64,000 bases of DNA from Methylovirgula sp. 4M-Z18 (GTDB lineage Bacteria; Pseudomonadota; Alphaproteobacteria; Rhizobiales; Beijerinckiaceae). The position numbers and the translations under genes were made by a program. The stretch covers positions 3,386,874-3,450,873 of the forward strand of contig NZ_CP149574.1 of NCBI RefSeq assembly GCF_037890675.1, read 5' to 3'. This document shows, one piece after another, positions 6,783 through 40,475 of the stretch (position 1 is its first letter; each line of letters begins with the position of its first letter). The notes under the pieces were generated by a model, which saw nothing but the letters and a program-made list of their open reading frames with translations, had not been told where the DNA came from and made no database searches.

Positions 6783-6827
6783 GGAAGCGCTCCCAAACTG
6801 GATCAGAATGAACTATCCGCATGATCG

Positions 6828-23912: not shown

Positions 23913-25283
23913 CTACGCGGCCACGATTTTCTCGCTTCTCACACCGGCCTTGCGCGTCGCGTTGCGCGTATCGACCACCAGTTTCGCCGCATCCACGAGC
24001 GCCGGCCAATCGATCCGGTCGTGGTCGGTCACGATCATCACCGCATCATAGGCCGCGACGTTCTGCGCGCTGAGCGCCACCGAGCGCAGGCCCGCGAGCT
24101 TGCCATGTTCTCGCGTCATCGGGATTTCCGGCACATGCGGGTCGTGAAAATCGACCCTGGCACCGCGCTCCTGCAGCATCTCGATGATGGTCAGCGCCGG
24201 GCTCTCGCGAATGTCGGAAATGTTTTTCTTATAGGCCGCACCGACGATCAGGATCGCAGCGCGCGACAGCGCGAGGCCCATGCGGCGGTCGAGCGCTTCG
24301 GCGAGGCGGTCGATGACCCAGCGCGGCATGTCGGAATTGATCTCGCCGGCAAGTTCGATGAAGCGCGTGTTGAGCCCATGCGCCCGCGCCTTCCACGACA
24401 GGTAGAACGGATCGATCGGGATGCAATGGCCGCCGAGCCCCGGGCCCGGATAGAACGGCATGAAGCCGAAGGGCTTGGTCTTCGCCGCATCGATCACTTC
24501 GAACACGTCAATGCCCATGTGGTGATAGATCACCTTCAGCTCGTTGACCAAGGCGATGTTGACGGCGCGGAAAATGTTCTCGGTGATTTTAACCGCCTCG
24601 GCGGTTGCGGTCGACGACACCGGCACCACATGGTCGACGAAAGCCGCGTAAAGCATCTGCGCAAGCGCGAGCGCTTCCGGTCCGTCGCCGCCGACGATCT
24701 TCGGGATCGACCGGGTCGAGAAGGAGGCATTGCCCGGGTCCTCGCGTTCCGGCGAAAAGGCAAGATAGAAATCGCGCCCCGATTGCAGGCCGCCTTGCTC
24801 CAGAATTGGCCGGCACACGTCGCTCGTCGTGCCGGGATAGGTGGTCGATTCGAGCACGATGAGCTGGCCGGGCCGGAGCGTGCCGGCAATCGCCTCGATC
24901 GTCTGCACCACATAATGCAAGTCGGGCTCGCGATGGCGCCCGAGCGGCGTCGGCACGCAGATGATGATCGCGTCCGCCTCGCCGAGCCTGGCGAAATCGC
25001 CGCTGGCCTCGAACAGGCCGGCGGCGCGCGCGGCCGCGATTTTGGCGGCTGGAATATGCTCGAGCGGTGTCCGGCCGCCGTTCAGCTCGGCCACGCGATC
25101 GGGGTTGATGTCGAAGCCGATGACCCGGAACCCTTGAGTCACGGCCGCGAGCATGAGCGGCAGGCCGACATAGCCCAATCCGATCACGGCTATCTTTGCC
25201 TGGCGTGTCTCGATTTTGGAAAAAAGCACGCTATTTTGTGCGGAGACCTGCGACACGACCCGTTCCTTTTCTAACCCGCTCAA
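23913..25283 (-). CDS. Nucleotide-sugar dehydrogenase (UDP-GlcNAc/UDP-glucose 6-dehydrogenase type)
   Basis: 456 aa. NAD-dependent oxidation of a UDP-sugar to the uronate, supplying acidic sugars for surface polysaccharide. The N-terminal Rossmann motif is VIGLGYVGLPL. The catalytic-region GHCIPIDP has its nucleophilic Cys, in GFMPFYPGPGLGGHCIPIDP (~260-280). VGAAYKKNISDIRESPA lies in the UDP-binding domain. The FYPGPG-type context is more like WbpA/WecC (UDP-HexNAc) than Ugd. It faces away from the glycosyltransferase cluster that probably uses its product. Confidence 0.92.
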   Translation of the reverse strand: MSGLEKERVVSQVSAQNSVLFSKIETRQAKIAVIGLGYVGLPLMLAAVTQGFRVIGFDINPDRVAELNGGRTPLEHIPAAKIAAARAAGLFEASGDFARLGEADAIIICVPTPLGRHREPDLHYVVQTIEAIAGTLRPGQLIVLESTTYPGTTSDVCRPILEQGGLQSGRDFYLAFSPEREDPGNASFSTRSIPKIVGGDGPEALALAQMLYAAFVDHVVPVSSTATAEAVKITENIFRAVNIALVNELKVIYHHMGIDVFEVIDAAKTKPFGFMPFYPGPGLGGHCIPIDPFYLSWKARAHGLNTRFIELAGEINSDMPRWVIDRLAEALDRRMGLALSRAAILIVGAAYKKNISDIRESPALTIIEMLQERGARVDFHDPHVPEIPMTREHGKLAGLRSVALSAQNVAAYDAVMIVTDHDRIDWPALVDAAKLVVDTRNATRKAGVRSEKIVAA

Positions 25284-25357
25284 AGATAGGACCTATCTAT
25301 AAGTCGCGGCGCGCGCTGGCAAATTTCCAAAGCAGCGGGAGGTTGTGATACCACGAC

Positions 25358-25372
25358 CTTGCCCATGGCAAG
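25358..25372. promoter_or_regulatory. Palindrome in the divergent polysaccharide promoter region
   Basis: CTTGCC-CAT-GGCAAG, a perfect dyad with 3-bp spacer, in the 130-bp spacer between the UDP-sugar dehydrogenase and the first glycosyltransferase. It may let one regulator control both directions. Evidence is symmetry and position only. Confidence 0.4.
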
Positions 25373-25413
25373 TGTCATAAATCCGGTTTATTGTAGCGGA
25401 CAGAGTTTAATCG

Positions 25414-26715
25414 ATGAATGGCATGATGCGCTGGGTCAACGAGCAGCCCGACTTTTCTTTTCCGGCTGCAGATGGGTCTTTGGTGGACGATACGGCGCAC
25501 TCGCAGGAGCGTGGCGCGAGCGTCGGCACGCGGGTCAACCGACTCGATGATATCCGCATCCTGATGTACAGCCACGACACGTTCGGCCTCGGGCATTTGC
25601 GCCGGTGCCGTACCATCGCCCATGCCCTGGTCGAGCGGTTCAAGGGCATTCATGTTCTGATTATATCGGGTTCGCAGATCGCCGGCGCCTTCGACTTTCG
25701 CGCCCGGGTCGATTTCGTCAAAGTCCCCAGCGTCATCAAGCTGTACAATGGCGAATATGCGTCCATCGTCGACCACATCGACATTCAGGAGACGCTGACC
25801 TTACGCAAATCGATGATCCTGAACGCGGCGAAAAGCTATCGGCCGCAAATCCTGATCGTCGACAAGGAGCCGATGGGCGTGCATGGCGAGCTCGAGCCGA
25901 CCCTGAGCTATCTGAAGCAGCAGGGCACGACCCTGGTGCTCGGCCTGCGCGAGGTGATGGACGCGCCGCATCTTCTGCGCCAGGAATGGGCGAAGCGCGA
26001 CATGCTCGCCAAAATCGACCATTTCTTCGACGACATCTGGATCTACGGTCCGGAAAACTTCTGGAATCCGCTGACCGGCCTCGACCTGCCGGCCTCATGG
26101 CAAAAGCGCATGTATTGGACGGGGTATTTGCGGCGCAACCTGCCGACCGCGCCCCGCACCTCGCTCGGCGCGGGCATACCGCCAGATGCGCTGCTGCTCA
26201 CGGTCGGCGGGGGCGGCGACGGCGCCCAGATGATGCGCCAGGTCCTGAGCGCCTATGAGCACGACCGCAGCTTGCAGCAGCCCGCTATCCTGGCGCTCGG
26301 GCCGTTCATGAACAATGATGAGCGCGAAGAGATCAAGCACCGCGCCTCGGCGCTGCCGCATGTGTATTTCATCGATTTCGACAACAATTTCGAAACGGTG
26401 ATCGAGGATTCCGCTGCCGTCGTCAGCATGGGCGGCTACAATACGTTCTGCGAAATCATCTCGCTCGACAAGCGTGCGCTGCTCGTCCCGCGCGTCACGC
26501 CGCGCGAGGAGCAGCTCATCCGCTCGCGCCGGGCGGCGGAGCTTGGCCTCGTCGACATGATCCATCCCGACGACGCAGACAATGCCGGCCTCATGGCCGC
26601 AGCCCTGCATCGCCTCGCCACGCGCCCCCTGCCCTCCACCTGCGGCGCCGACGCCATGCTGAACGGCCTGGAGCGCATTTGCGACTGGCTGCAAATGCGC
26701 GTGCAGCAGTTTTAA
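25414..26715 (+). CDS. MurG-like glycosyltransferase
   Basis: 433 aa. The glycine-rich donor/acceptor loop TFGLGHLRRCRTIAHAL is near residues 55-71 and a GT-B C-terminal half follows, with GGGGDGAQMM and SMGGYNTFCEI. The pattern is that of MurG/GT28-type enzymes, but the sequence is not MurG itself. The first ~45 residues precede the fold and may be dispensable; in-frame ATGs at 25423 and 25426 are other possible starts. It is first in a four-gene run with tight spacing. A homologous enzyme is encoded at 28598-29725. Confidence 0.8.
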   Translation: MNGMMRWVNEQPDFSFPAADGSLVDDTAHSQERGASVGTRVNRLDDIRILMYSHDTFGLGHLRRCRTIAHALVERFKGIHVLIISGSQIAGAFDFRARVDFVKVPSVIKLYNGEYASIVDHIDIQETLTLRKSMILNAAKSYRPQILIVDKEPMGVHGELEPTLSYLKQQGTTLVLGLREVMDAPHLLRQEWAKRDMLAKIDHFFDDIWIYGPENFWNPLTGLDLPASWQKRMYWTGYLRRNLPTAPRTSLGAGIPPDALLLTVGGGGDGAQMMRQVLSAYEHDRSLQQPAILALGPFMNNDEREEIKHRASALPHVYFIDFDNNFETVIEDSAAVVSMGGYNTFCEIISLDKRALLVPRVTPREEQLIRSRRAAELGLVDMIHPDDADNAGLMAAALHRLATRPLPSTCGADAMLNGLERICDWLQMRVQQF

Positions 26716-26724
26716 AAATTTTCG

Positions 26725-27348
26725 ATGACGTTCGCCTGCCGCCCCGCGCCCCATCCCGCCTATCGCCGCACGGTCTCGCTGTGCGATCCGCTCACGCCCA
26801 AACCGCTGTACAAAATGGAGGAAGACTGGTCGGGCCGCAGCACCACCTACGGCCAGCGCCGGGTGGAAGCCTATTTGCGCGACCATAGCCAAGCCGGACA
26901 AACCGTCTTCGTGACCGGCGTCGGCAATTCGCTGTTCGCGCAGGATTTCGCCGACCATTTTGCCGGCATCGACGGCGTCACGCTGCTGCCGAGCGAGAAG
27001 GTGCGTGCCGATGCACTCGGCATTCCGCATTATCGCGTGCGGGTCCAAAACAAATATCAGAACGGTTTGGCCGACGCGTTCGGCGGCGCTTACGATTATA
27101 TCGTCGACGTCAATCTTGCCTCCTGGGCCTGCTGCCAAACGCATGTCGCCGCGATGATGCGCGCCTACCACCGCATGCTCAAATCCGGCGGCAGCATTCT
27201 GACCGATCGCGAGGGACTGGACTGGCTCGAGAAAGGCGTCGATCCGCACTGGCGCATGGACTTTGCCGATCTGCAGATCTTGGCCGGCGAGTTCGGGTTC
27301 ACCGCGCAATCGCGCACCGACTGGGTCTACGCGTTGCACAAATCATGA
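26725..27348 (+). CDS. Class I SAM-dependent methyltransferase in the glycosyltransferase cluster
   Basis: 207 aa. FVTGVGNSLFAQDFADHF (~61-78) fits motif I. YDYIVDVNLASWACCQTHV and HRMLKSGGSILTDREG fit the later strands of a Rossmann-fold methyltransferase. It starts 9 bp after the first glycosyltransferase and overlaps the next by 4 bp. A sugar O-methyltransferase role in the same polysaccharide pathway is likely but inferred. Confidence 0.72.
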   Translation: MTFACRPAPHPAYRRTVSLCDPLTPKPLYKMEEDWSGRSTTYGQRRVEAYLRDHSQAGQTVFVTGVGNSLFAQDFADHFAGIDGVTLLPSEKVRADALGIPHYRVRVQNKYQNGLADAFGGAYDYIVDVNLASWACCQTHVAAMMRAYHRMLKSGGSILTDREGLDWLEKGVDPHWRMDFADLQILAGEFGFTAQSRTDWVYALHKS

Positions 27349-28601
27349 CCGAAGCACCGATTATCTTTCTGCTCAAAGGCTATCCGCGCCTGTCCGAGAC
27401 CTTCATCGCCCAGGAGATTCTGGGGCTCGAACAGCTCGGCCTGCCGGTCCGGATCGTCGCCATGCGCCGCCCGACCGACGATCGCATTCACCCCATTCAC
27501 CGCGAAATCAAGGCGCCCGTCTCCTATCTGCCCGAATATCTGCATCACGAGCCGATCCGCGTGTTGCGCGCGGCCTGGGCCGGCCTACGGCGCAGGCGTT
27601 TTGCCGCCGCGTGGCGCGCCGTCCGGGCCGATTTTGCGCGCGACATCAGCCGCAACCGGCTGCGGCGCTTCGGCCAGGCTTTGGTGCTCGTCCATGAAAT
27701 GCCGGACGACACAAAGCACATTCACGCCCATTTCATTCACACGCCGGCGAGCGTCGCACGCTATGCCTCGCTCCTGACCGGCGTGCGATGGACTTTGTCC
27801 GCGCATGCCAAGGACATCTGGACCTCGGCGGATTGGGACCTCAAGGACAAATTGCACGAGAGCGACTGGGCGGTCACGTGTACGGCGAGCGGCAAGGAAC
27901 GGCTCGACCGGCTCGGGCCGGCGCAAAGGCCGGTGCATTTGCAATATCACGGCCTCGACCTGCAGCGCTTTCAACCGCTCACTGCGCCGCGGCCGGCGCG
28001 CAACGGCGTGTCTGCGCGGGCCTGCGTACAGCTTCTCACCGTCGGCCGCGCGGTGCCCAAAAAGGGCCTCGACATCCTGCTCGACGCGCTCGCGCTTCTC
28101 CCCCCCGACCTCAACTGGCGCTGGACTCATATCGGCGGCGGTACGGAACTCGGCAAGTTGAAGAAACGCGCCTTGGCGCTCAAGATCGAGCAGAATCTCG
28201 TCTGGCTCGGCGCGCAGGATCAGCAAGCGGTGCTGCAGCATTATCGCGACGCCGACATCTTCGTGCTTCCCTGCCGCATCGCCAAGAATGGCGATCGCGA
28301 CGGCCTGCCGAATGTCCTGATGGAAGCGCAGAGCCAGGGCCTCGCCTGCATTTCAAGTCCGATCTCCGGCATTCCCGAACTCATCGCCGACCGCGAGACC
28401 GGCCTGCTGGTGCAGCCGGAAGATGCCGGCGCCTTGAGCGACGCCATTACATCGCTCATTCGCGATCCGGACCTGCGCCATCGCTTGGGCCGCGCAGGGC
28501 AGCAAAGGGTGCGGCAGATGTTCGATCACAAGGCCGGCATTCAGGCGCTCTATCGCATGTTCGAGCCGGATCTGGCGCGCCTGGAGGACGTCCAGTCGTG
28601 A
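27345..28601 (+). CDS. Glycosyltransferase family 4 protein
   Basis: 418 aa GT-B fold. The N-terminal domain has FLLKGYPRLSETFIAQE and HIHAHFIHTPASVARYAS. The GT4 donor-site region has LLTVGRAVPKKGLDILLDAL, DIFVLPCRI and the E(x7)E-type DGLPNVLMEAQSQGLACISS. This pattern is typical of colanic-acid/exopolysaccharide transferases such as WcaL/AmsK types. The ends overlap both neighbours by 4 bp, indicating translational coupling. Confidence 0.9.
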   Translation: MTEAPIIFLLKGYPRLSETFIAQEILGLEQLGLPVRIVAMRRPTDDRIHPIHREIKAPVSYLPEYLHHEPIRVLRAAWAGLRRRRFAAAWRAVRADFARDISRNRLRRFGQALVLVHEMPDDTKHIHAHFIHTPASVARYASLLTGVRWTLSAHAKDIWTSADWDLKDKLHESDWAVTCTASGKERLDRLGPAQRPVHLQYHGLDLQRFQPLTAPRPARNGVSARACVQLLTVGRAVPKKGLDILLDALALLPPDLNWRWTHIGGGTELGKLKKRALALKIEQNLVWLGAQDQQAVLQHYRDADIFVLPCRIAKNGDRDGLPNVLMEAQSQGLACISSPISGIPELIADRETGLLVQPEDAGALSDAITSLIRDPDLRHRLGRAGQQRVRQMFDHKAGIQALYRMFEPDLARLEDVQS

Positions 28602-29725
28602 GCCGCCGCGTTTTCTTCTATGTCCAGCATCTGCTCGGCATGGGGCATCTCGTGCGCTCCTATCGCATCGCGCGCGCCCTCGCCGCGGGCGGGATGCAGG
28701 TGACGATCGTGTCGGGCGGCGTGCCGACCAAGGGTCTCGATCATGGCGCAGCGGACCTCGTCCAATTGCCCCCCGTGAAAGCGGGCGAGCGAGGCTTTTC
28801 CGATCTCGTCCATCCCGATGGCACGATGTTCTCGAATGACGACAGAGCGAAACGGCGCGATCTTCTGTTGCAGCATTTCGATCGGCTCAATCCCGACATT
28901 CTCCTCACCGAAGCCTTTCCGTTCGGCCGGCGGCAGATGCGCTTCGAACTCATCCCGCTCCTCGAGCGCGCCCATCGCCGCGCCGCGCGGCCGCTGATCG
29001 CCGCATCGGTGCGCGATATTCTGCAGGACCAGAAGACGCCGGCACGGGCGCAGGAAATCGCCACATTTGTCGAGCAATTCTACGACGCGGTGCTGGTGCA
29101 CGGTACGCCCGAATTCATTCCCTTGACCGCGACATTTCCTCTGGCCACGGGCTTTGCCGACAAGATCCGCTATACCGGGCTCGTCGGGCCGGATGCGGCA
29201 CCACCGGCGCAAGTTCCGTCCTACGATGTCATCGTCTCGGCCGGTGGCGGCGCGGTCGGCGCACCGCTCATCGCGGCGGCGCTTGGCGCGCATAAAAGCT
29301 TTGCGCCAGAGGAACAATGGCTGATCGTCACGGGACCACACTTGCCTGAGGCGCTCGCCGCCGAAATCGAAGCGCAGGCCGCGCCTGGCCTTATCGTGAA
29401 GCGTTTCGTGCCGGATCTGCCGGACCTGCTGTGCGGCGCGCGCCTCTCGATCTCGCAAGCCGGCTACAACACCGTCGCCGATATTCTGCGCGCCGGCCGC
29501 CGCGCCGTGCTGGTGCCCTTCGCCGCGGGCGGCGAGACCGAGCAGACATTGCGTGCTGAGACAATGGCGGATCGCGGCCTCGCCGTCAGTCTCACCGAGC
29601 GCGATCTTTCCGCACAGACGCTGCGAGAAGCGATTTTGCGCGCGCGGCAATTGCCGCAGCGCGCCGCCGGCCTACCGCTGCAGGGCGCAGCCCAAACGCA
29701 CGCCATCCTGCAGGCGATGACCTAG
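28598..29725 (+). CDS. MurG-like glycosyltransferase, GTG start
   Basis: 375 aa. The GTG at 28598 overlaps the previous stop codon (GTGA), and the protein starts directly with a GT-B strand (RRVFFYVQHLLGMGHLVRSY). The upstream extension of the open frame (from 27788) is antisense-free but only shadows the GT4 gene. GMGHLVRSYRIARAL and SQAGYNTVADILRAG mirror the two motifs of the glycosyltransferase at 25414-26715, so the two are probably paralogous. It is the last gene of the cluster. Confidence 0.85.
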   Translation: MSRRVFFYVQHLLGMGHLVRSYRIARALAAGGMQVTIVSGGVPTKGLDHGAADLVQLPPVKAGERGFSDLVHPDGTMFSNDDRAKRRDLLLQHFDRLNPDILLTEAFPFGRRQMRFELIPLLERAHRRAARPLIAASVRDILQDQKTPARAQEIATFVEQFYDAVLVHGTPEFIPLTATFPLATGFADKIRYTGLVGPDAAPPAQVPSYDVIVSAGGGAVGAPLIAAALGAHKSFAPEEQWLIVTGPHLPEALAAEIEAQAAPGLIVKRFVPDLPDLLCGARLSISQAGYNTVADILRAGRRAVLVPFAAGGETEQTLRAETMADRGLAVSLTERDLSAQTLREAILRARQLPQRAAGLPLQGAAQTHAILQAMT

Positions 29726-29782
29726 AATGCGCTGCATGATGCGCTTGCCTACGCACCAACGGACATCCATCCCGCCTCACCG

Positions 29783-29948
29783 CCGTCATTGCGAGCGAAG
29801 CGAAGCAATCCATCCCCTGGCCGATATATTTTATCCCCGTCCTCAAGCGCTGATTCGCGCCTGCTCCCCGTCGCAGCTGCTCCGTTGCGGCAAGATTTTT
29901 ACGGCGGTGGATGGATTGCTTCGTCGCTTACGCTCCTCGCAATGACGG
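29783..29948. repeat. Inverted-repeat element of the CGTCATTGCGAGCGAAG type
   Basis: Left end CCGTCATTGCGAGCGAAGCG followed by AAGCAATCCATC. Right end GGATGGATTGCTTCG, then a mirrored CTCGCAATGACGG. The 160-bp unit fills the gap between the last glycosyltransferase and the convergent MscS gene. This is a different family from the four palindromic elements elsewhere in the window; similar intergenic repeats are widespread in bacteria. Confidence 0.8.
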
Positions 29949-29988
29949 CAATGAGACAGGAGTCTCTGTCAGAATAAGAAAGCGCGCA

Positions 29989-31974
29989 TCACCGCGCCGT
30001 CAGCGTATTCGGGTCGACCGTCATCAATTGCGGCATCGGATTGGCATAATGCACGCCCGCTGCTATCAGCGCCTGTTCGAGATAGCGGTAGGCCGCCGCG
30101 CGCACTTCGAATTGCTTGCCCGGCAGGGACATGAACTTGCAGCGGAACAGTTTCAGCCCCGGCTCGACCCGATAGAGCCGGCCCTTGAGCGGCTCGATGA
30201 TATAGGGGCCGAATTCCTCGTCCTGCAGCAATTCCTCGCCGACAGCCTTGATCAATTTGCGCACCATTTCGCTGTCCGTGTCGAGCGGCAGCGGAATGTT
30301 GAACTTCTCGATCACCCAATCGCGTGAATTGTTGCGCACGGCGCCGAGCACGCCATAGGGCACATAATGCAGCGGGCCGTTGTGATGCCGAAGCGCCACC
30401 GAGCGCAGCGTGATCCGCTCCACTGTGCCGCGCGTACCGGCCCCGCCTTCGATATATTCGCCCACGCGGAACACGTCTTCGAGCAGATAGAAAATGCCGG
30501 AGATGACGTCGCGCACCAAAGTCTGCGCGCCGAAGCCGATGGCAATGCCGACGACGCTCGCCCCCGCGAGCAAGGGCGCGATATCGATGCCGAGCACGGA
30601 CAGGATCGACAAGAGAAAGATGGCTGAAACGACGATCACCAGCGCCTTGCGTGCCAGCGGCAAAAGCGTCAACAGGCGCGCATTCGGACCGGGATTGCCC
30701 TCGTGCCCGACCGGCCCGACGGCACTAATCCGGCTGTCGATCGCAGCTCGCACCGCGGCAATGACTGCGTCTGCAGCCAAGAACAAGGCGATGACGCCGA
30801 GCAGCCGCACGGTCGCCTTGCCGAGCAGGCTGTCGCTGGCCGGCATTTCCATCACCGGCAGGTTCCAGATCAACGCGCAAGCCGCGAGCGCGGACATGGC
30901 GATGACGAGCCGCCCGATGCGCAGCACCACGCCGGGAAGCACCGCCAGAAAGGAAACGACCTCTTCCGGCTCCTGCTCGTGATGCGGCTCGGGCGGCGGC
31001 GCGGGCACGGCGACGGCTGGCCACAGCCGGCCGACGACCTGGCGCAACAGCCGCTCGGCCGCCAGCATCAGCGCAAGAACCGCAACGGTCCCCGCCATCG
31101 TGTCGGCGCCAATCAGCCAAAGCGCGTATGTCGCGATGATGATCGCGGTCACGAAGAAGGGCACGGGCATCTGCGGCCGCGCGATGCCCCGGATCCGCGC
31201 GCGGGCGCGGGTCATGCGCACCCACAGACCGATGACCGCGAGCAGCAGAACCGTCACGCTCGTCGCGGCGATGAAACGCACGCTGCCGGCGACATGGGCA
31301 GCATCGGCCGCATTGCGGTCGATGAGGTCGGAGAGCAGCCATCCGGCACTCAACGTGCCGGCCGTGATCACGGTCATCGCATCGAGCCAGCGCACGCGCA
31401 AATCGCTCATCGGCAACAGACGCAGGCGCGGCGCATTGGGCGCCGTCACGATTTGCAGTATGAGCGAGGCGAGCCGGACCAGGAACAGCCACAGGGTCAG
31501 GGTCAAAACCGCATCCTGCACGCCCGGCGGCCAGGCAAAACTGATGGAGAGCGCGACGACCACGATGGCAAAGAGCAGCAGCGCGAACAGCTTGATCGCG
31601 AACAGCCGGAGGCCGAAGCTCAACGCCTGCAGCGGCGAATTCGGCACGGCGGCCTCGAGCGCGCGCAGCGCGCCGAATGCGTAAGAGCGGTAGAGCCACT
31701 CGATCGACGCGCCGGCGATGATCAGAATCAGCAGATAGGCATAGGTCTTCACACCATCCGAGCTGGCGACCGCCGTTTCGAAAGCGGTAACAAGTTGCTT
31801 GGTTTGCGGAAACAGGCCCAGAAAATCGTCGAGCAAACCATGCAAATGCTGCCGCGCCGCCTGCAGAAACGCAACGATCCGGGAAAAGATATGGGTTTGC
31901 GCATAGGCCAGCTTGTCGCTGGCCGCCGCAAGCTGGGTGAGCGAGCCGCCGTCGAGTTTCGTCGGCGTGATCAT
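29989..31974 (-). CDS. Mechanosensitive channel, MscS family (coupled to a redox membrane protein)
   Basis: 661 aa. About ten membrane segments precede the MscS core, which begins near residue 490 (GIDIAPLLAGASVVGIAIGFGAQTLVRDVISGIFYLLEDVFRVGEYIEGG). A beta/alpha C-terminal vestibule follows. The start at 31974 is set by a 4-bp ATGA overlap with the upstream cytochrome/ferredoxin-like gene; the open frame extends 35 codons further but only shadows that gene. No signal peptide. The coupling to a redox protein is unusual for a channel. Confidence 0.87.
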   Translation of the reverse strand: MITPTKLDGGSLTQLAAASDKLAYAQTHIFSRIVAFLQAARQHLHGLLDDFLGLFPQTKQLVTAFETAVASSDGVKTYAYLLILIIAGASIEWLYRSYAFGALRALEAAVPNSPLQALSFGLRLFAIKLFALLLFAIVVVALSISFAWPPGVQDAVLTLTLWLFLVRLASLILQIVTAPNAPRLRLLPMSDLRVRWLDAMTVITAGTLSAGWLLSDLIDRNAADAAHVAGSVRFIAATSVTVLLLAVIGLWVRMTRARARIRGIARPQMPVPFFVTAIIIATYALWLIGADTMAGTVAVLALMLAAERLLRQVVGRLWPAVAVPAPPPEPHHEQEPEEVVSFLAVLPGVVLRIGRLVIAMSALAACALIWNLPVMEMPASDSLLGKATVRLLGVIALFLAADAVIAAVRAAIDSRISAVGPVGHEGNPGPNARLLTLLPLARKALVIVVSAIFLLSILSVLGIDIAPLLAGASVVGIAIGFGAQTLVRDVISGIFYLLEDVFRVGEYIEGGAGTRGTVERITLRSVALRHHNGPLHYVPYGVLGAVRNNSRDWVIEKFNIPLPLDTDSEMVRKLIKAVGEELLQDEEFGPYIIEPLKGRLYRVEPGLKLFRCKFMSLPGKQFEVRAAAYRYLEQALIAAGVHYANPMPQLMTVDPNTLTAR

Positions 31975-33125
31975 TGCATCACCTCTTCGGCGGGAATCGG
32001 GTTGGTCACCCATTCCTCCGGCGCTTGGGCCGCCGAGGCATCGGCATAGACCGGGACCAGACGCACCACCTTGACCCACGCGCCGATGACCTTTGCCTGG
32101 CAGGCAAGACGCGCGCCTGCCGGGGCGTGCACCGCCTGCAGCGTCAGCAGTTCCGCCTTGTCAGGCGAAGAGAGGCACTTTTGGCCGGCAAGAATCTGCA
32201 CGCGGCAGGTGCCGCAACGGCCGCGGCCGTGGCAGATATTGGCGTGCGGCACTCGATTGGCCTGGCTGACTTCCAGAATCGTCAGGCCGCGCCGCCCGCT
32301 CACCTTGCGATCGTCCTCGTATTTGACATAGGCGATCTCGCGGCGATTGAGCATCAGGCGCACGAGAAAGATCCCGATCGCGATTGCCGTGCAGATGCCG
32401 TAGACAATAAGGACCTTCGCTTGGATGCTGCCGAGCTGTGCTGTGACTGATAGGGCCTGCGCGGCCGAATGGTCCATGGCCGCCTTGAAGGCATCGTCAT
32501 GCGCGTAGCGGTCGAGCAGCACATTGCCGGCTTGCACGAACCCCAGGATGGCCAGAACCGGGACGGCCAGCAGCGCCACCAAGATCGGCCCGCCCACCTT
32601 GCGCCACCACGCATGCAAGACCATCCAGCTATAGAGGCCGATCACGCCATGCAGCCACACGATCACGAGCAGCGCCAATTGCTGATAGGCGAGCAGCGGA
32701 TGGAAGATCCAGAACGAGGAAAGAACGAACTGATAGTTCAAGTTGAAATCCTCGACGAGGCGCCACACCATGATGCTCGACACGGCGTGGTTCACGAGGA
32801 GCGGCGGCACCGCAAGACCCAGCCCGATCTGCACCGCATCGCGGATGCGCATGGTCAAGGTCCGGCGGACGGCAATTGTGTAGAAGCCAAGGCCTGAATG
32901 CACCAGCGCCGCGAGCGCCAGCGCCGTTTGCCCGACCGGGTTGGTCCAGCCGCCCATCAATATCGGCCGCCAATCTTCCGCAGTATCGGGCGACCAGAGG
33001 CTCAAGGACAGATTGGCGAGATGGTCGGCGATGAAGGCGAAAATCACCAATCCGCTCACCAGACGGAAACGCCGAATCCAGAGCGAAAGCGTCATATATT
33101 GGGGGTGAAGCGAGGTCTTTAACAT
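31971..33125 (-). CDS. Membrane cytochrome-b-like protein fused to a [2Fe-2S] ferredoxin domain
   Basis: 384 aa. Residues ~15-260 hold about six membrane segments with His residues in or at the edges of helices (H35, H76, H113, H142, H159, H171), like the haem-b anchor subunits of succinate dehydrogenase. Residues ~265-360 are a ferredoxin domain with C298, C304, C307 and C342 (C-x5-C-x2-C-x34-C, the adrenodoxin-like spacing). I start at 33125, where AAAGG lies seven bases upstream; an ATG at 33179 lacks a ribosome site. As I recall, the same N-terminal architecture precedes a nucleotide-cyclase domain in some rhizobial proteins. Here the cyclase is missing and an MscS channel is coupled by a 4-bp overlap. 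Confidence 0.75.
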   Translation of the reverse strand: MLKTSLHPQYMTLSLWIRRFRLVSGLVIFAFIADHLANLSLSLWSPDTAEDWRPILMGGWTNPVGQTALALAALVHSGLGFYTIAVRRTLTMRIRDAVQIGLGLAVPPLLVNHAVSSIMVWRLVEDFNLNYQFVLSSFWIFHPLLAYQQLALLVIVWLHGVIGLYSWMVLHAWWRKVGGPILVALLAVPVLAILGFVQAGNVLLDRYAHDDAFKAAMDHSAAQALSVTAQLGSIQAKVLIVYGICTAIAIGIFLVRLMLNRREIAYVKYEDDRKVSGRRGLTILEVSQANRVPHANICHGRGRCGTCRVQILAGQKCLSSPDKAELLTLQAVHAPAGARLACQAKVIGAWVKVVRLVPVYADASAAQAPEEWVTNPIPAEEVMQ

Positions 33126-33337
33126 CTCAGAACCTTTCCCAGTGCGATGAAACTGGGACCAAACTAAAGTTATTGTCATTTGAGATGAAAAAGGGAAGAA
33201 CTCAAGACCAAAGAACAGGTTGACCTTTTCACAATTCCGATAGGGGAATGGCCTATTTAGAGAAACGAGTCATATTGACCGGGGCAATTCCCTCCCCGAA
33301 ACTGATGTGAAGGGACAAACATATCGGGGACGATTTG

Positions 33338-35236
33338 GTGAGCGCAGGCGCTGCGGACATTCTTCGGGTCGAGAACCTGAAGATCGGATTTTTATCCCAA
33401 GGCACCGTCAATGAGGTGATCAATGACGTCTCCTTTCGCATTCCCGCCGGCAAGACCGTGGCTCTCGTCGGCGAATCAGGCTCGGGCAAATCGGTCATTT
33501 CCCAGGCGATCATGGGCTTGCTGCCGGCCAATGGCCTGATCACCGGCGGCAAGATCAAGTTTCAGGACGCCGAGCAAGGCGCCCACTGCGTCGACATCGC
33601 GCAATTGCCGCGGAACGGCGCGGCCATGCGCGAATTGCGCGGCGGACGCATCGGCATGATCTTCCAGGAGCCCATGTCGTCGCTCTCGCCGGTCCACACG
33701 ATCGGCAATCAGATCGACGAGGCTTTGCGCCTGCATCGCAAGGCCTCGCGCAAGGAAGCGCGGGAAATCACCCAGACCATGCTGCGCATGGTGGGCTTTC
33801 GCAACCCGGCGGGCGCCTACAACAAATATCCGTTCGAACTCTCGGGTGGCCTGCGCCAGCGCGCGATGATGTCGATGGCGTTGATCTGCCATCCCTCTTT
33901 GCTCATCGCCGACGAGCCGACTACCGCCCTCGACGTGACCGTGCAGGCGCAGGTGCTGAAACTGATGGGCGATCTGCAAAAGGAGATCGGCATGGCGATC
34001 CTCCTGATCACCCACGATCTTGGTGTCGTCGCCAATGTCGCCGACGAGGTCGTCGTGATCTATCACGGGCAGATCATGGAATCCGGTTCGTTGCGGCAAT
34101 GTTTCGGTGATCCGCAACACCCTTATTTGCAAGCGCTGATGCGTGCTCTGCCCAAATTCGACATGGGCGAAAACGACCGGCTTGTCGCCTTGCGCGAAGT
34201 GAAGCGCGATCCGCAAGCCCGCGCGGCGCTCTTGCGGGCGCGGCCAAACATTCATCCGAGCGGCCCGTTGTTGCGGGTGCAGAACATCTCGAAATCCTAT
34301 CTCAGAAGTGATTCCGGATTTTTCGGTTCGCCCGGCATCGAAGAGATTCGCGCAGTCGACGATGTTTCGTTTCATATTAACAAGGGCGAGTGCCTGGGGC
34401 TCGTGGGCGAAAGCGGCAGCGGCAAGACCAGCGTGAGCAAATTGATCATGCGCGCCGTCCAGGCCGACAGCGGTTCGATTCTCTATGACGACGGCGAAAT
34501 CAAGGCGGATATGTTTGCGCTCGACAAGCGCGCGCTGCGCCAGTTCCGCCCGCATGTGCAGATGATCTTTCAGGATCCGGTCAGTTCGCTGTCGCCGCGC
34601 ATGAACGTGCTCAACATCATCTGCGAACCGATGGAGATTCACGGGATCGGGACGCCGAAGAGCCGCAAGGAACGCGCGGTCGATTTGATGCGGGCGGTCG
34701 GCCTCGATCCGCGCTTTCTCAACCGCTATCCACACAGTTTCTCGGGCGGCCAGCGGCAGCGGATCGGCATCGCCCGCGCGCTTGCCCTTTCGCCGTCCCT
34801 CATCATCTGCGACGAACCCGTTTCGGCGCTCGACGTCTCCGTCCAGGCGCAGGTGTTGAACCTGTTGAAGGACCTGCAGCGCGATCTCGGCCTCGCCTAT
34901 CTGTTCATCACCCACAATCTCGCCGTGGTCGATTACATTGCGACGCGTATCGCCGTCATGGCCCGCGGCCGCATCGTGGAAATCGCGCCGCGCAGCACCT
35001 TGTTCCACGAACCGGCGCATCCCTATACGCGCGCCTTGCTGCGCTCCATCCCCTTCCCAGAGCTCGACCGGCGGCTCGATTTCGATGCCGTTTGTTCCGG
35101 CAACCCAACCGATCGGGGCGCCTGGGGCGACGGCTTCCGGCCGGACGGCGAAATCCCCTTGCACTATCTCGACCTTGGCGGCGGCCATCTGGTGCTGACG
35201 CGCGAGACACGCATTCTGCGGGGCCCATCGCTATGA
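33338..35236 (+). CDS. Peptide-type ABC transporter, fused double ATP-binding protein (YejF/DppDF-like)
   Basis: 632 aa with two complete nucleotide-binding domains. The first has Walker A GESGSGKS (~49-56), signature LSGGLRQR and Walker B LLIADEP. The second has GESGSGKT, FSGGQRQR and LIICDEP. Each ends with the oligopeptide-transporter C-terminal extension (HPYLQALMRALP and HPYTRALLRSIP). A GTG at 33338 has GGGGA eight bases upstream; a TTG one codon earlier is possible. It is the first gene of the importer operon and overlaps the next by 4 bp. Confidence 0.93.
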   Translation: MSAGAADILRVENLKIGFLSQGTVNEVINDVSFRIPAGKTVALVGESGSGKSVISQAIMGLLPANGLITGGKIKFQDAEQGAHCVDIAQLPRNGAAMRELRGGRIGMIFQEPMSSLSPVHTIGNQIDEALRLHRKASRKEAREITQTMLRMVGFRNPAGAYNKYPFELSGGLRQRAMMSMALICHPSLLIADEPTTALDVTVQAQVLKLMGDLQKEIGMAILLITHDLGVVANVADEVVVIYHGQIMESGSLRQCFGDPQHPYLQALMRALPKFDMGENDRLVALREVKRDPQARAALLRARPNIHPSGPLLRVQNISKSYLRSDSGFFGSPGIEEIRAVDDVSFHINKGECLGLVGESGSGKTSVSKLIMRAVQADSGSILYDDGEIKADMFALDKRALRQFRPHVQMIFQDPVSSLSPRMNVLNIICEPMEIHGIGTPKSRKERAVDLMRAVGLDPRFLNRYPHSFSGGQRQRIGIARALALSPSLIICDEPVSALDVSVQAQVLNLLKDLQRDLGLAYLFITHNLAVVDYIATRIAVMARGRIVEIAPRSTLFHEPAHPYTRALLRSIPFPELDRRLDFDAVCSGNPTDRGAWGDGFRPDGEIPLHYLDLGGGHLVLTRETRILRGPSL

Positions 35237-37140
35237 GCCGGTTTGCCGCCATTGTCGCCCTCTGGCTGCTGTTCATAACCTGCGGCCTCGCCCGGGCGGA
35301 CGTGCGCGAAGCGCCTTATTACGCGGCGCAAGTGCAGGCCGGCAAATTGCCGCCCGTGTATCAGCGCATTCCCGACCATCCGCGGATCGTGCCCCTCGCC
35401 GCCATGGGCCGCACGCCGGGCCGCTACGGCGGTACATTGCGCATGCTGATGAACGATCCGCGCGATATCCGCTTCGCCAACGTCTATTCCTATGCCCGGC
35501 TCGTTGCCTATGACGAGCACCAGAACCTCGTGCCGGATATTCTCGAGTCCTTCGATATCGTGGACGACCGGATTTTCACCTTTCATTTGCGCCCCGGCCA
35601 CAAATGGTCGGACGGATATCCATTCACGACGGAAGACTTCCGCTACACCTGGGAGGATTTCTACAACAACAAGGCGCTGTCGCCCGGCGGGCCGCCGCGC
35701 GAAATGATTGTCGACGGCGAGCCGCCGAAAGTCGATGTCATCGATGCCGAGACGATCCGCTATTCCTGGAGCAAGCCCAATCCGGCCTTCTTGCCGGCCC
35801 TTGCCGCCGCGCAGCCGCTCTATCTCACCATGCCGGCGCATTATCTCAGGCAATTTCACGACCGCTATGCCGATCCCAAGGCCCTGAGCGCGGCGGTGAA
35901 AACCGCGCACGTGAAGGATTGGACCGCTTTGCACGAGCGCATGTCGCGGCAATACCGGCCGGACAATCCCGATCTGCCGACGCTCGAAGCCTGGCGCAAT
36001 ACCACCAAATCGCCCAGCGAGTTTTATGTGTTCGAACGCAATCCCTATTATCACCGCGTCGACGAGAACGGCCATCAACTGCCCTATATCGACAAGATCG
36101 AAATGCCGCTCGTCTCCAGCGATCTCATTCCGAGCAAGACGGGCGGCGGCGAGAGCGATCTGCAGGCGCGCTATCTCTCCGCCAGCGACTACACGCTGCT
36201 GCAGGAAAATGCCAAGAAGTTCAATTACCACGTCTATCTCTGGCCCTCGGGTTACGGCGCGGCGATCGCGCTGCGGCCCAATCTGAATGCGGCCGATCCC
36301 GTCTGGCGCAAGCTGATGCAGGACACGCGTTTCCGCCAGGCGTTGTCGCTCGGCATCGACCGGCAGGAGATCAACGACGTCGTCTATTTCGGATTGGCCC
36401 GCCCCGTCGGCAATTCGGTGCTGCCCGAAAGCACGCTGTACGATCGCGGCGATGCGCAGGCCTATGCCAGCTATGACCCGCAGCGCGCCAATGAATTGCT
36501 CGACGAAATCGGCCTGACCCAGCGCGACGCAAACGGTGTCCGCCTCTTGAGCGACGGCCGGCCGCTGCAAATCGTGGTCGAGACCGACGGTGACAGCACG
36601 ACCGAAGACGTGATGCAGCTCGTCATCGACAAATGGCACGCGCTCGGCGTCCATGCCTATACCCATCTGTCGCCGCCCCAGGTCTTTCGCATGCGTGCCT
36701 GGTCGGGCGAGGCGCTGATGAGCGTGGGGCGCGGCTGGGATGTCGGCTTGCCAAGCTCGATCATGCCGCCGAACGAATTGTCGCCCGACAGCGACGCGGA
36801 ATTTCAATGGCCGAAATGGGGGCAATATGTCGAGAGCAGCGGCGCCGAGGGCGATGCGCCCGACCTGCCCGAGGTCAAAAAGCTTGTCGCCTTGCGCAGC
36901 CGCTGGCGCCTCTCCAGCTCGCATGAGGAGCGGCGGCAGATCTGGCAGGACATGTTGAAGATCAATGCCGAACAGGTTTATCTGATCGGCATTGTCAACG
37001 GCGCCGAACAGCCCGTCGTCGTGTCCGACCGGCTGCAGAACGTGCCGCGCCACGCGATCTACAGCTTCGCGCCCAACGCGTTTTTCGGCGTCTACATGCC
37101 GGACACGTTCTGGTTCAACGACGCACCGGCGGAGCAATGA
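35233..37140 (+). CDS. ABC transporter substrate-binding protein (SBP_bac_5, peptide/microcin C-like)
   Basis: 635 aa with an N-terminal signal peptide (residues ~1-22, ending LARA). The mature protein has the family 5 solute-binding fold (DILESFDIVDDRIFTFHLRPGHKWSDGYPFT; later LRQALSLGIDRQEIN-type region). The start is fixed by a 4-bp overlap (ATGA) with the ATPase gene. It lies between the ATPase and the permeases. The ligand is unknown; peptides or similar large solutes are likely. Confidence 0.93.
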   Translation: MSRFAAIVALWLLFITCGLARADVREAPYYAAQVQAGKLPPVYQRIPDHPRIVPLAAMGRTPGRYGGTLRMLMNDPRDIRFANVYSYARLVAYDEHQNLVPDILESFDIVDDRIFTFHLRPGHKWSDGYPFTTEDFRYTWEDFYNNKALSPGGPPREMIVDGEPPKVDVIDAETIRYSWSKPNPAFLPALAAAQPLYLTMPAHYLRQFHDRYADPKALSAAVKTAHVKDWTALHERMSRQYRPDNPDLPTLEAWRNTTKSPSEFYVFERNPYYHRVDENGHQLPYIDKIEMPLVSSDLIPSKTGGGESDLQARYLSASDYTLLQENAKKFNYHVYLWPSGYGAAIALRPNLNAADPVWRKLMQDTRFRQALSLGIDRQEINDVVYFGLARPVGNSVLPESTLYDRGDAQAYASYDPQRANELLDEIGLTQRDANGVRLLSDGRPLQIVVETDGDSTTEDVMQLVIDKWHALGVHAYTHLSPPQVFRMRAWSGEALMSVGRGWDVGLPSSIMPPNELSPDSDAEFQWPKWGQYVESSGAEGDAPDLPEVKKLVALRSRWRLSSSHEERRQIWQDMLKINAEQVYLIGIVNGAEQPVVVSDRLQNVPRHAIYSFAPNAFFGVYMPDTFWFNDAPAEQ

Positions 37141-37141
37141 C

Positions 37142-38143
37142 ATGTTATTGCGCTATATCATCCGCCGCATCCTGATCATGATCCCGACCCTGCTCGTCAC
37201 CAGCATGCTGATCTTCACGATCATCTCGCTGCCGCCGGGCAATTATTTCGACATGATGAAGGCCGAGGCTCTGGCGCAGGGCGAACATGCCGACATGAGC
37301 CAGATCGAATTCATGCAAAAGGAATATGGCTTCGATAAGCCAGCCTATATCCGCTATGGCTATTGGGTCTGGGGCCTCGTGCACGGCGACATGGGTTATT
37401 CGTTCGAATATCAGAAGCCCGTCAGCGAAGTCGTCGGCGACCGCCTGCTGCTGACCATGCTGCTGTCGTTCCTGACCATCGTCTTCACCTGGATCGTCGC
37501 CTTTCCGATCGGCATCTATTCGGCGACCCATCGCTATAGCTGGGCGGATTATGGCTTGACCTTTCTCGGCTTGATCGGTTTTGCGGTTCCCTCTTTCCTA
37601 CTCGGCCTTCTCGTTCTCTATTTCGCCCATGTCTGGTTCGGCCTCTCGTTCGGCGGCCTGATGGACACCCAATATCTTGCCCAGCCGATGAGCTGGGCCA
37701 AGTTCAAATCGGTGCTGCAGCATATCTGGGTGCCGGTCGTGATCATCGGTGCGAGCGGCACCGGCACGATGATCCGCGCCGTGCGGGCCAATCTTCTCGA
37801 TGAGCTGCAACGGCAATATGTCACGACGGCGAAAGCCAAAGGCCTCGGGCCGTTCAAGGCGCTGGTCAAATATCCCTTGCGCATGTCGCTCAACTTCTTC
37901 ATCGCCGACATCGGCACGATCCTGCCCTCGATCGTATCCGGCGGCGAGATCGTCGCGATCGTTCTGTCGCTGCCCACCACCGGCCCGCTGCTGCTGCACG
38001 CGCTGCAAACCCAGGATCTCTATCTTGCCGGCTCGTTCCTCATGTTCCTCGCGGTGATGACCATGATCGGCGTTCTGATTTCGGATATTGCGCTTGCGCT
38101 GCTCGACCCGCGCATTCGGCTGAGCGGAGGCGCCACGAAATGA
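37142..38143 (+). CDS. ABC transporter permease (OppB/YejB-like)
   Basis: 333 aa, six membrane segments. It starts MLLRYIIRRILIMIPTLL, typical of DppB/OppB subunits. The EAA-like cytoplasmic loop lies near residue 230 (YVTTAKAKGLGPFKALVKYPLR). The start is one base after the substrate-binding gene and the end overlaps the next permease by 4 bp. Confidence 0.93.
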   Translation: MLLRYIIRRILIMIPTLLVTSMLIFTIISLPPGNYFDMMKAEALAQGEHADMSQIEFMQKEYGFDKPAYIRYGYWVWGLVHGDMGYSFEYQKPVSEVVGDRLLLTMLLSFLTIVFTWIVAFPIGIYSATHRYSWADYGLTFLGLIGFAVPSFLLGLLVLYFAHVWFGLSFGGLMDTQYLAQPMSWAKFKSVLQHIWVPVVIIGASGTGTMIRAVRANLLDELQRQYVTTAKAKGLGPFKALVKYPLRMSLNFFIADIGTILPSIVSGGEIVAIVLSLPTTGPLLLHALQTQDLYLAGSFLMFLAVMTMIGVLISDIALALLDPRIRLSGGATK

Positions 38144-39309
38144 GCCTCGAACTCGACGATCAGGCATCGCATTATGTGCGCCGCGAACCATTCGATCCGC
38201 ATTCGGTGGAGCGGCTGACGCCGGCGCAAGAGCGGATTTATCTCGCCTCGCAATGGCAATTGACCTGGATGAAATTCCGCCGCCACCGTCTCGCGGTCGT
38301 ATCCGGCGTGTTTCTCATTGTCATCTATGCGAGCATTCTGATCAGCGAATGTCTCGCGCCCTACAACCTCGAGCGGCGCGATACGAAATCGATCTTCGCT
38401 CCGCCCCAGCACATCCATCTCATCCATGATGGGCATATCGTCGGGCCCTTCACCTATAATTATAAGACCCATCTCGATCCCGAGACGCTGAAACATGACT
38501 ATGACGTTGATCGGTCCACGGCCTATCCGCTGCGCTTCTTTTGCCATGGCGATCCCTATCGCTTCTGGGGCATCGTCCCCGCCGATTGGCATGTGATCTG
38601 CCCCGCGCCGGGCGCCACATTGTATCTGATGGGCACCGATCGGATGGGCCGCGACATCTTCTCGCGCATGATCTACGGCGCGCGGATCTCGCTCACTGTC
38701 GGCTTGATCGGCGTTTCGATCAGCTTCGCGCTCGGCATTCTGATCGGCGGCCTTGCCGGTTATCTCGGCGGCTGGTTCGATATGCTGGTGCAGCGGATTT
38801 CGGAGGTCATTCACGCCTTGCCGCAATTGCCGATCTGGCTGGCGCTGACCGCGATTCTGCCCGTCACCTGGAGCCCCATTCTCGTCTATTTCGGCATCAC
38901 CCTCATCCTCGGCCTGCTCGACTGGACGGGCCTCGCGCGCGCGGTCCGCTCCAAACTCCTGTCGTTGCGCGAGGAAGAATATGTGACGGCGGCGCAATTG
39001 ATGGGCGCGAACACGCCGCGCGTCATCTTCCGCCATCTGATCCCCGGTTTCTTAAGTCATCTGATCGCCAGCGCGTCGCTGAAAGTCCCGGCCATGATCT
39101 TGGGCGAAACCGCGTTGAGCTTCCTCGGCCTCGGTTTGCGGCCGCCGATCGTCTCGTGGGGCGTCATGCTGCACGAGGCGCAAAACATCAATGCCGTCGC
39201 GCTCTATTCCTGGCTGCTGCTGCCGGTCGTACCGGTCGTGCTGGTGATCCTGGCGTTCAATTTCCTCGGGGACGGATTGCGCGATGCCGCAGATCCGTAT
39301 CATCACTAG
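38140..39309 (+). CDS. ABC transporter permease (OppC/YejE-like)
   Basis: 389 aa. The long N-terminal segment (to ~75) before the first transmembrane helix and a ~100-residue periplasmic insertion are as in YejE-type permeases. The core region has GTDRMGRDIFSRMIYGARISL and the EAA loop YVTAAQLMGANTPRVIFRHLIPG. It is the last gene of the importer operon. Confidence 0.93.
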   Translation: MSLELDDQASHYVRREPFDPHSVERLTPAQERIYLASQWQLTWMKFRRHRLAVVSGVFLIVIYASILISECLAPYNLERRDTKSIFAPPQHIHLIHDGHIVGPFTYNYKTHLDPETLKHDYDVDRSTAYPLRFFCHGDPYRFWGIVPADWHVICPAPGATLYLMGTDRMGRDIFSRMIYGARISLTVGLIGVSISFALGILIGGLAGYLGGWFDMLVQRISEVIHALPQLPIWLALTAILPVTWSPILVYFGITLILGLLDWTGLARAVRSKLLSLREEEYVTAAQLMGANTPRVIFRHLIPGFLSHLIASASLKVPAMILGETALSFLGLGLRPPIVSWGVMLHEAQNINAVALYSWLLLPVVPVVLVILAFNFLGDGLRDAADPYHH

Positions 39310-39329
39310 ACAGAACGTTTTTTCGCACC

Positions 39330-40475
39330 GTGTCTCGTCCGCTCCGCATCGCCTTCTACGCCCCGTTGAAATCGCCCGACGACGCCGTGCCGTCCGGCGA
39401 CCGCCAGATGGCGCGGGCGCTAATCGAAGCACTGACACGCGCCGGTCATACGGTGACGCTGGTCTCGCGCCTGCGCAGCTTTCACAAGGTCCCCGATGCC
39501 GCTGCCTATGTCGTGCTGGACACGGCCGCACGCCGCGAGTGCCAACGCATCGCGGACGCGTGGCGCGAGGGTGCAACGCCCAATCTGTGGCTGACCTATC
39601 ACCCCTATTACAAAGCGCCCGACCTTTTGGGGCCTGAGCTCGCACAAGCCTTCGCCATCCCTTACGTGACGGCGGAAGCTTCGTACGCAAAAAAGCGCGA
39701 GAGCGGCGATTGGGCCAAATGGCAGAAGCCAGTCGGCTTGGCGTTGCGGCAGGCGACGCTGAACCTCTGTTTCACCCGCCCCGATTATCTCGGCCTCGCG
39801 CAATTTCTTGGATCGGAGCAAGGGCTCGCCTATTTTCCGCCGTTTCTCGACACGAGTGCATTTATGCCGCAGCGCCAACCTCGCGCGCACGACGCAGGGC
39901 AATCTGTACAGCTCATTTGCGTCGCGATGATGCGCCCCGGCGTCAAATTGGAAAGCTACGCATTTCTGGCTTGCGCCCTCGGCCACCTCATGCACCTCCC
40001 CTGGCATCTCACGATCGTCGGCGACGGACCGGCGCGGCCGCAGGTGGAAGCGGCTTTCAGCGCTCTGCCCGCCGAGACCTACAGCTTTCGCGGCGCGCTC
40101 GATTCGGCCCGCGTCCGCGAGGCGCTTCATGCCGCCGATCTCTTCGTCTGGCCGGGATTTGGCGAAGCCTACGGGATTGCCTATCTCGAAGCGCAAGCTG
40201 CCGGCCTTCCGGTCGTGGCGCTCAATGAGGGCGGCATTGCCAGCGTACTGAAACCCAATGAAACCGGGATTCTGGTGCAGGAGAAGACACCGGCCGCCTA
40301 TGCTGGGGCAGTCGAAGCCCTCATCAAGGACGAGACCGGGCGCGCGGTGATGGGCCGCGCCGCTGCGGCCTTTCTGCATCGCGAGCGCTCGCTCGTGAGC
40401 GCAGCACAACGGCTTGATCGATTGCTGCATGATGCTCTACAGCGCTATCAAGCAGAGGCCAAAACTCATGACTGA
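39330..40475 (+). CDS. Glycosyltransferase (GT-B fold, family 4-like), GTG start
   Basis: 381 aa. GTG at 39330 leads into RPLRIAFYAPLKSPDDAVPSG, with MARALIEALTRAGHTVTLVS next. The C-terminal half has LTIVGDGPARPQVEAAF and the donor-binding DLFVWPGFGEAYGIAYLEAQAAGLPVVA. The open frame upstream of the GTG belongs to the permease gene region and is a shadow. It overlaps the deacetylase gene by 8 bp, so the two form a polysaccharide unit rather than part of the importer. Confidence 0.85.
   Translation: MSRPLRIAFYAPLKSPDDAVPSGDRQMARALIEALTRAGHTVTLVSRLRSFHKVPDAAAYVVLDTAARRECQRIADAWREGATPNLWLTYHPYYKAPDLLGPELAQAFAIPYVTAEASYAKKRESGDWAKWQKPVGLALRQATLNLCFTRPDYLGLAQFLGSEQGLAYFPPFLDTSAFMPQRQPRAHDAGQSVQLICVAMMRPGVKLESYAFLACALGHLMHLPWHLTIVGDGPARPQVEAAFSALPAETYSFRGALDSARVREALHAADLFVWPGFGEAYGIAYLEAQAAGLPVVALNEGGIASVLKPNETGILVQEKTPAAYAGAVEALIKDETGRAVMGRAAAAFLHRERSLVSAAQRLDRLLHDALQRYQAEAKTHD

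Follow-up and report, generated by a model that had tools for sequence, protein, structure and literature searches.

The sensor protein described here is most closely related to the N-terminal sensor half of CyaC-type adenylate cyclases. In CyaC of Sinorhizobium meliloti, ubiquinone oxidises or reduces two haems B in a six-transmembrane (6TM) domain, with a resulting change in cyclase activity, and the protein also carries a [2Fe-2S] cluster (PMC10463352, citing Wissig 2019). An earlier study grouped together 30 ferredoxin-linked class IIIb cyclases from alpha- and betaproteobacteria, which resemble the cytochrome b of fumarate reductase/succinate dehydrogenase and have four spaced intramembrane histidines, with two haems predicted (PMC4821796). 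A redox protein partnered with an efflux system is not unprecedented either. In Escherichia coli, the quinone oxidoreductase KefF is an ancillary subunit needed for full activity of the K+ efflux system KefC, and it is encoded 5′ of kefC, overlapping it by a few bases (PMC10224563). The view, put forward in a preliminary description of the present DNA, that channels are rarely paired with redox proteins therefore needs qualifying, as KefF/KefC is just such a pairing (PMC10224563).

Within the window, by which we mean the whole 64,000-nucleotide stretch of Methylovirgula sp. 4M-Z18 DNA that was analysed, gene 1 (31971-33125, minus strand) encodes a protein of 384 residues with a di-haem-b type 6TM anchor and a C-terminal [2Fe-2S] ferredoxin domain, as judged from its open reading frame, Pfam, and a structural model. 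It is followed by gene 2 (29989-31974, minus strand), which encodes a YbiO-type MscS-family channel of 661 residues, as judged from Pfam, NCBIfam, PDB, and fold matches. The stop codon of gene 1 overlaps the start codon of gene 2 in the motif ATGA (31971-31974, minus strand); frames, strand, lengths, and overlap are all as the preliminary description gave them.

Like CyaC and the other ferredoxin-linked class III cyclases, gene 1 has both parts of the sensor module, namely a 6TM anchor with four invariant intramembrane histidines and a C-terminal ferredoxin domain with four invariant cysteines and an invariant H294, and it is about 30-35% identical to CyaC-type cyclases over the shared part. 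Unlike CyaC, it has no class III cyclase (Guanylate_cyc) domain, as judged from Pfam and the length of its frame, and it ends at residue 384, with the MscS gene following across a 4-bp overlap. As in KefF/KefC and KefG/KefB, the gene for the redox subunit comes first and overlaps the start of the efflux or channel gene. KefF is the closest functional parallel, by analogy and not by homology: Pfam finds only Fer2 and MS_channel domains in the pair, and KefF, unlike gene 1, is soluble, while KefC is a K+/H+ exchanger.

The sensor protein and the channel

An AlphaFold2 model of the gene 1 protein (pLDDT 89, pTM 0.84; 25 homologues) consists of six membrane helices (residues 8-43, 63-86, 94-123, 143-168, 174-209, and 228-259) and a ferredoxin fold. 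Translation may begin at M11 (window 33095) rather than at M1, since relatives align from M11 and residues 1-7 have pLDDT values below 50. The six-helix domain (residues 8-259; 32349-33104, minus strand) has an FrdC-like fold, and its membrane part matches Wolinella succinogenes FrdC with a Z score of 14.2 over 207 residues (4.4 A, 16% identity), in a comparison based on the predicted fold. Helical bundles can reach Z scores of about 13 through a common arrangement, and we therefore weighed this match jointly with the pattern of conserved histidines and not by itself. A sequence profile of the membrane part against the PDB gave the fumarate reductase entry 5xmj_C at a sub-threshold E value of 8.7, so the relation to FrdC is drawn from the fold and from the published resemblance of the cyclase sensors (PMC4821796).

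Four histidines on the minus strand, each a putative haem ligand, are invariant in 25 of 25 paired proteins and in 12 cyclase-type proteins: H35 in helix 1 (33021-33023), H76 in helix 2 (32898-32900), H113 in helix 3 (32787-32789), and H159 in helix 4 (32649-32651). Six histidine-bearing membrane segments had been proposed; the six helices are borne out, but conserved histidines occur on helices 1-4 only, and H142, H171, H209, and H219 are absent from the conserved columns in the alignment of the 25 paired proteins. The four-histidine pattern is that of the di-haem FrdC/SdhC anchors. Unlike these anchors, gene 1 continues into a ferredoxin domain, and no conserved dehydrogenase or reductase subunit genes adjoin it.

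That domain (residues 264-356; 32058-32336, minus strand) matches Pfam Fer2 with an E value of 2.4e-8 and has the cysteine pattern CX5CX2CX34C (C298, C304, C307, and C342), a spacing like that of ISC/adrenodoxin-type ferredoxins. These cysteines and H294 are invariant in the 25 paired proteins and remain so when the 12 cyclase-type relatives are added, and the C-terminal part of the model matches [2Fe-2S] ferredoxins with a Z score of 14.9 (Rhodobacter capsulatus FdC). The ferredoxin domain and its four cysteines had thus been correctly recognised, and the proposed architecture of a haem-b anchor joined to a ferredoxin is supported by the FrdC-like fold together with the four-histidine set. 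By homology, the gene 1 protein is predicted to bind two haems b in its membrane domain and a [2Fe-2S] cluster in its C-terminal domain.

The assignment of gene 2 to the MscS family, also made in the preliminary description, is upheld by Pfam MS_channel_1st and MS_channel_2nd, both above their cut-offs. The predicted layout is one of about 11 transmembrane helices with a cytosolic beta and alpha/beta domain. The core helices TM2/TM3, which would form the pore, lie at residues 432-501 (30472-30681, minus strand; Pfam and model), and the beta domain at residues 485-549 (30328-30522, minus strand; MS_channel_2nd) is one of the stretches that vary least among the paired channels. Among solved structures, E. 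coli YbiO is the best match to gene 2 both by sequence (9go3/7a46; residues 330-642, E about 3e-35) and by fold, which places gene 2 beside YbiO and other multi-TM MscS channels. It falls short of a YbiO equivalog, as its best NCBIfam match, PRK11465 (NF008542), scores 137.6 bits against a cut-off of 596, and, unlike YbiO, it has an N-terminal part without a sequence match and is encoded beside a redox protein. The term “osmotic valve” is an assumption about an MscS-family channel for which opening under tension is predicted.

The residues that set paired channels apart from unpaired paralogues lie mostly in the cytosolic domain. These residues were considered as evidence of an interface with the sensor and were discounted, because they cluster in what is also the best-conserved part of the channel.

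Conservation of the pair and its cyclase-fused relatives

The sensor-MscS pair is real and conserved. It was found in 29 distinct loci after removal of duplicates (both genes are complete in 25 of them; L100, L116, L120, and L121 are truncated, or uncertain, where a contig ends), always in the order sensor then channel, so that confinement to one genome can be ruled out and the adjacency across genomes on which the preliminary description had staked its proposal holds widely. Of the 29 loci, 28 retain the 4-bp overlap; in the exception (L121) the first start lies at +2, giving a 1-bp overlap of the TGATG type. For comparison, a hand count in two annotated Rhizobium plasmid stretches gave 4-bp overlaps in about 4 of 34 co-directional neighbours. 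An artefact of random overlap is excluded by this exactness, and the suggested translational coupling is supported by it. No fusion of the two genes in one frame was seen among the surveyed loci: three long frames (G138, G491, and G387) are cyclases with a spurious open frame upstream, and two others (G759 and G965) are cyclase frames that are broken or cut short.

In the window, the pair is an isolated unit, with a divergent upstream neighbour (33335, plus strand) and a convergent downstream glycosyltransferase gene that ends at 29725 (plus strand). A consensus scan of the region, which is a weak test, found no sigma-70 promoter near gene 1, and co-transcription of the pair is accordingly read from the layout alone. 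No other neighbouring gene is common to many of the pair loci.

Carriers of the pair are scattered soil and water bacteria. Within the Alphaproteobacteria they include Beijerinckiaceae, Alsobacter, Labrys, Rhizobium, Allorhizobium, and Lichenibacterium, along with one MAG each from the Rhodospirillales and the Rhodobacteraceae; several further MAGs are labelled Betaproteobacteria, Burkholderiales, or Nitrosomonadales (the taxon labels of MAGs being the submitters' own). The pair is uncommon: counting the window's genome each time, it occurs in 7 of 397 genomes sampled from the family, 4 of 297 from the order, and 3 of 289 from the class; the cyclase form, by contrast, occurs in a large share of sampled genomes. 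Another family of the class yielded a more divergent pair (G834, L152), and among 398 genomes across the phylum, judged by frame length, none stood out beyond that genome and the window. Scanning named genomes gave 26 loci, made up of 25 pairs and one cyclase-type protein from Methylobacterium.

In the family and order samples, stand-alone sensors separate from other relatives by score (at least 238 bits versus at most 205), and all eight besides that of the window have an MscS gene directly downstream, its start exactly one base before the sensor's stop. The fidelity is reciprocal. With a channel profile in the family sample, seven channels scored 645-1013 bits, all with the sensor upstream (divided between two contig ends in the case of Lichenibacterium G134), and the others at most 482 bits. 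In addition, the pairwise identities of the two partners correlate across 25 pairs (r = 0.91), a value as high being reached in 0 of 2000 permutations.

Within the family and order to which Methylovirgula belongs, relatives of gene 1 mostly have longer frames (560-700 residues). Among eight of these examined by Pfam, six have Fer2 and Guanylate_cyc, and the remaining two (L044 and L122) score for Fer2 alone, their tails aligning with cyclases; by sequence, the longer relatives are CyaC-type proteins. In a tree of the sensor part, 28 paired and 32 cyclase-fused sequences are split by one branch (100/99; 100% of 200 bootstraps). With cyclase sensor halves as the closest relatives of gene 1 and so clean a split, the channel stands in for the cyclase as the partner of the sensor. 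The statement in the preliminary description that some rhizobial cyclases share this N-terminal architecture is thus borne out for the CyaC family by sequence, tree, and literature. The channels of 26 pairs form a clade (100/100), but for those of the most deeply branching pairs (L119 and L152; G481) the tree gives no confident position relative to unpaired channels (66/80). For this reason, the partnership with the channel may have had a single origin or may have been renewed, whereas the sensor lineage is, on the tree, one.

Several loci depart from the usual forms. In Lichenibacterium G134, the genome of the Lichenibacterium minor locus L120, the sensor gene is split, with its N-terminal half at one contig end and the ferredoxin half, together with the channel, on another contig (L150, G134:C178, and L144, G134:C12); this is perhaps a mobile-element insertion or a break in the assembly. 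Two stand-alone frames of ~250-280 residues (L156, G460:C1:469391-469927; L159, G007:C126) consist of the haem-anchor part only and have no ferredoxin domain. The cyclase-type L122 protein (Methylobacterium nonmethylotrophicum, 5977-7722) has altered motifs in a C-terminal part that lies below Pfam detection as a cyclase, and it is possibly an inactive cyclase.

Gating and its alternatives

MscS-family proteins are numerous in bacteria, and some of them may not be pure tension valves; to our knowledge, the triggers of most members beyond E. coli MscS are not known. Strict pairing with a sensor whose cyclase-fused relative reads the quinone pool provides a concrete candidate for a non-mechanical input, and it suggests that the channel opens in response to the cell's respiration. 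If so, one respiratory sensor module would be wired to two outputs, cyclic nucleotide synthesis and membrane conductance.

That the two genes function jointly is well supported. The full mechanism, in which a redox/quinone sensor subunit gates its MscS channel in trans, is one to which we give slightly better than an even chance. By analogy with CyaC, the haems of gene 1 would exchange electrons with the quinone pool and the [2Fe-2S] domain would track the redox state. The ferredoxin domain or the last helix would then act on the cytosolic or membrane part of the channel, whose beta and lower alpha/beta domains should share the cytosolic side with the ferredoxin domain, and such contact might shift the tension threshold or open probability of the channel. 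CyaC carries sensor and output in one fused protein; in the present pair the output would be a separate, co-translated pore in the same sensor-effector order, and the 4-bp overlap suggests that the subunits are made together so as to assemble, as in operons for one complex.

The same layout could also reflect mere co-regulation, in which two envelope-stress proteins share a small operon for balanced expression and have no direct contact. Many small operons do hold functionally related yet separate proteins, but the exact overlap, the fixed order, the co-divergence of the partners at 30-45% identity, the lack of a third conserved gene, and the reciprocal fidelity of sensor and channel make this explanation unlikely. 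Alternatively, gene 1 perhaps relays electrons between quinol and an acceptor in the cytosol, in either direction, and a small solute that this reaction makes or consumes is exported or equilibrated through the MscS-type protein. Anchors of the FrdC type and ISC-like ferredoxins usually serve as electron carriers, and both cofactor sites of gene 1 are intact; yet no enzyme or reductase gene is conserved beside the pair and the nearest relatives of gene 1 are cyclase sensor domains, and we regard such a role as rather improbable.

Signalling might even run in the opposite direction, with a channel that senses tension and alters the redox protein, thereby reporting turgor to the respiratory chain. 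The sequence leaves the direction of signalling unfixed, and MscS-family proteins are tension sensors. However, the redox protein has no further effector domain (Pfam, model), and in CyaC the same module lies upstream of its output (PMC10463352), an arrangement that the gene order here mirrors; a turgor reporter of this kind is, in our view, very unlikely.

Gating of the gene 2 channel by the gene 1 protein, which we infer from these comparisons, would join parts of known kinds. As far as can be searched, the pairing of this sensor and a pore is apparently undescribed: the searchable full-text literature gave no account of such a pair, which is weak evidence of absence as subscription journals lie largely outside its scope. 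It is tempting to speculate that the channel is the first of its kind to be known and that one sensor module takes either a cyclase or a pore as output, a proposal that we hold tentatively and at somewhat less than even chances.

Genomic surroundings

The pair lies within a block (window 23913-41226) of genes for a nucleotide-sugar dehydrogenase, three glycosyltransferases, a peptide-type ABC transporter, and a polysaccharide deacetylase, which spans 23913-29725 and 33335-41226 on either side of it. The block is about 42-69% identical to blocks of R. indicum, R. etli, Mesorhizobium, Phyllobacterium, and S. meliloti, and it is largely syntenic with rhizobial plasmid clusters that carry class III cyclases, CyaC, and cyclic-nucleotide-binding proteins. 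Indeed, CyaC is part of the Rhizobium plasmid blocks (495140-496858 in R. indicum; cyaCa in R. etli CIAT 652), along with further cyclases. Labrys has two of the glycosyltransferases next to the pair and a sensor of the cyclase form about 10 kb off. Thus, in three lineages (the window, the Rhizobium plasmids, and Labrys), the sensor module, with either output, is found near envelope-polysaccharide genes of the same type. Most other pair loci have no such block within the flanks examined, and we therefore take the block to be context and not part of the unit. Two of its genes are named redA/redB in R. etli CIAT 652.

The window contains another MscS-family gene, one without a redox partner (20431-22677, plus strand; 748 residues), about 7 kb away from where the pair ends and, seen from it, beyond the nucleotide-sugar dehydrogenase and glycosyltransferase genes. 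Blocks in the Rhodobacterales (Sulfitobacter indolifex and Tritonibacter) contain an MscS gene that is closer to this gene than to gene 2. The Sulfitobacter and Tritonibacter channels were considered as orthologues of gene 2 and rejected, as they have no redox partner and better match the 20431-22677 gene.

At the end of gene 2 is a terminator-like hairpin (29981-29998, minus strand), by consensus match only. The intergenic stretch at window 29760-29970, which lies between gene 2 and the glycosyltransferase gene convergent with it, contains inverted-repeat-like arms (TCATTGCGAGCGAAGCGAAGCAATCCATC ... GGATTGCTTCGTCGCTTACGCTCCTCGCAATGA).
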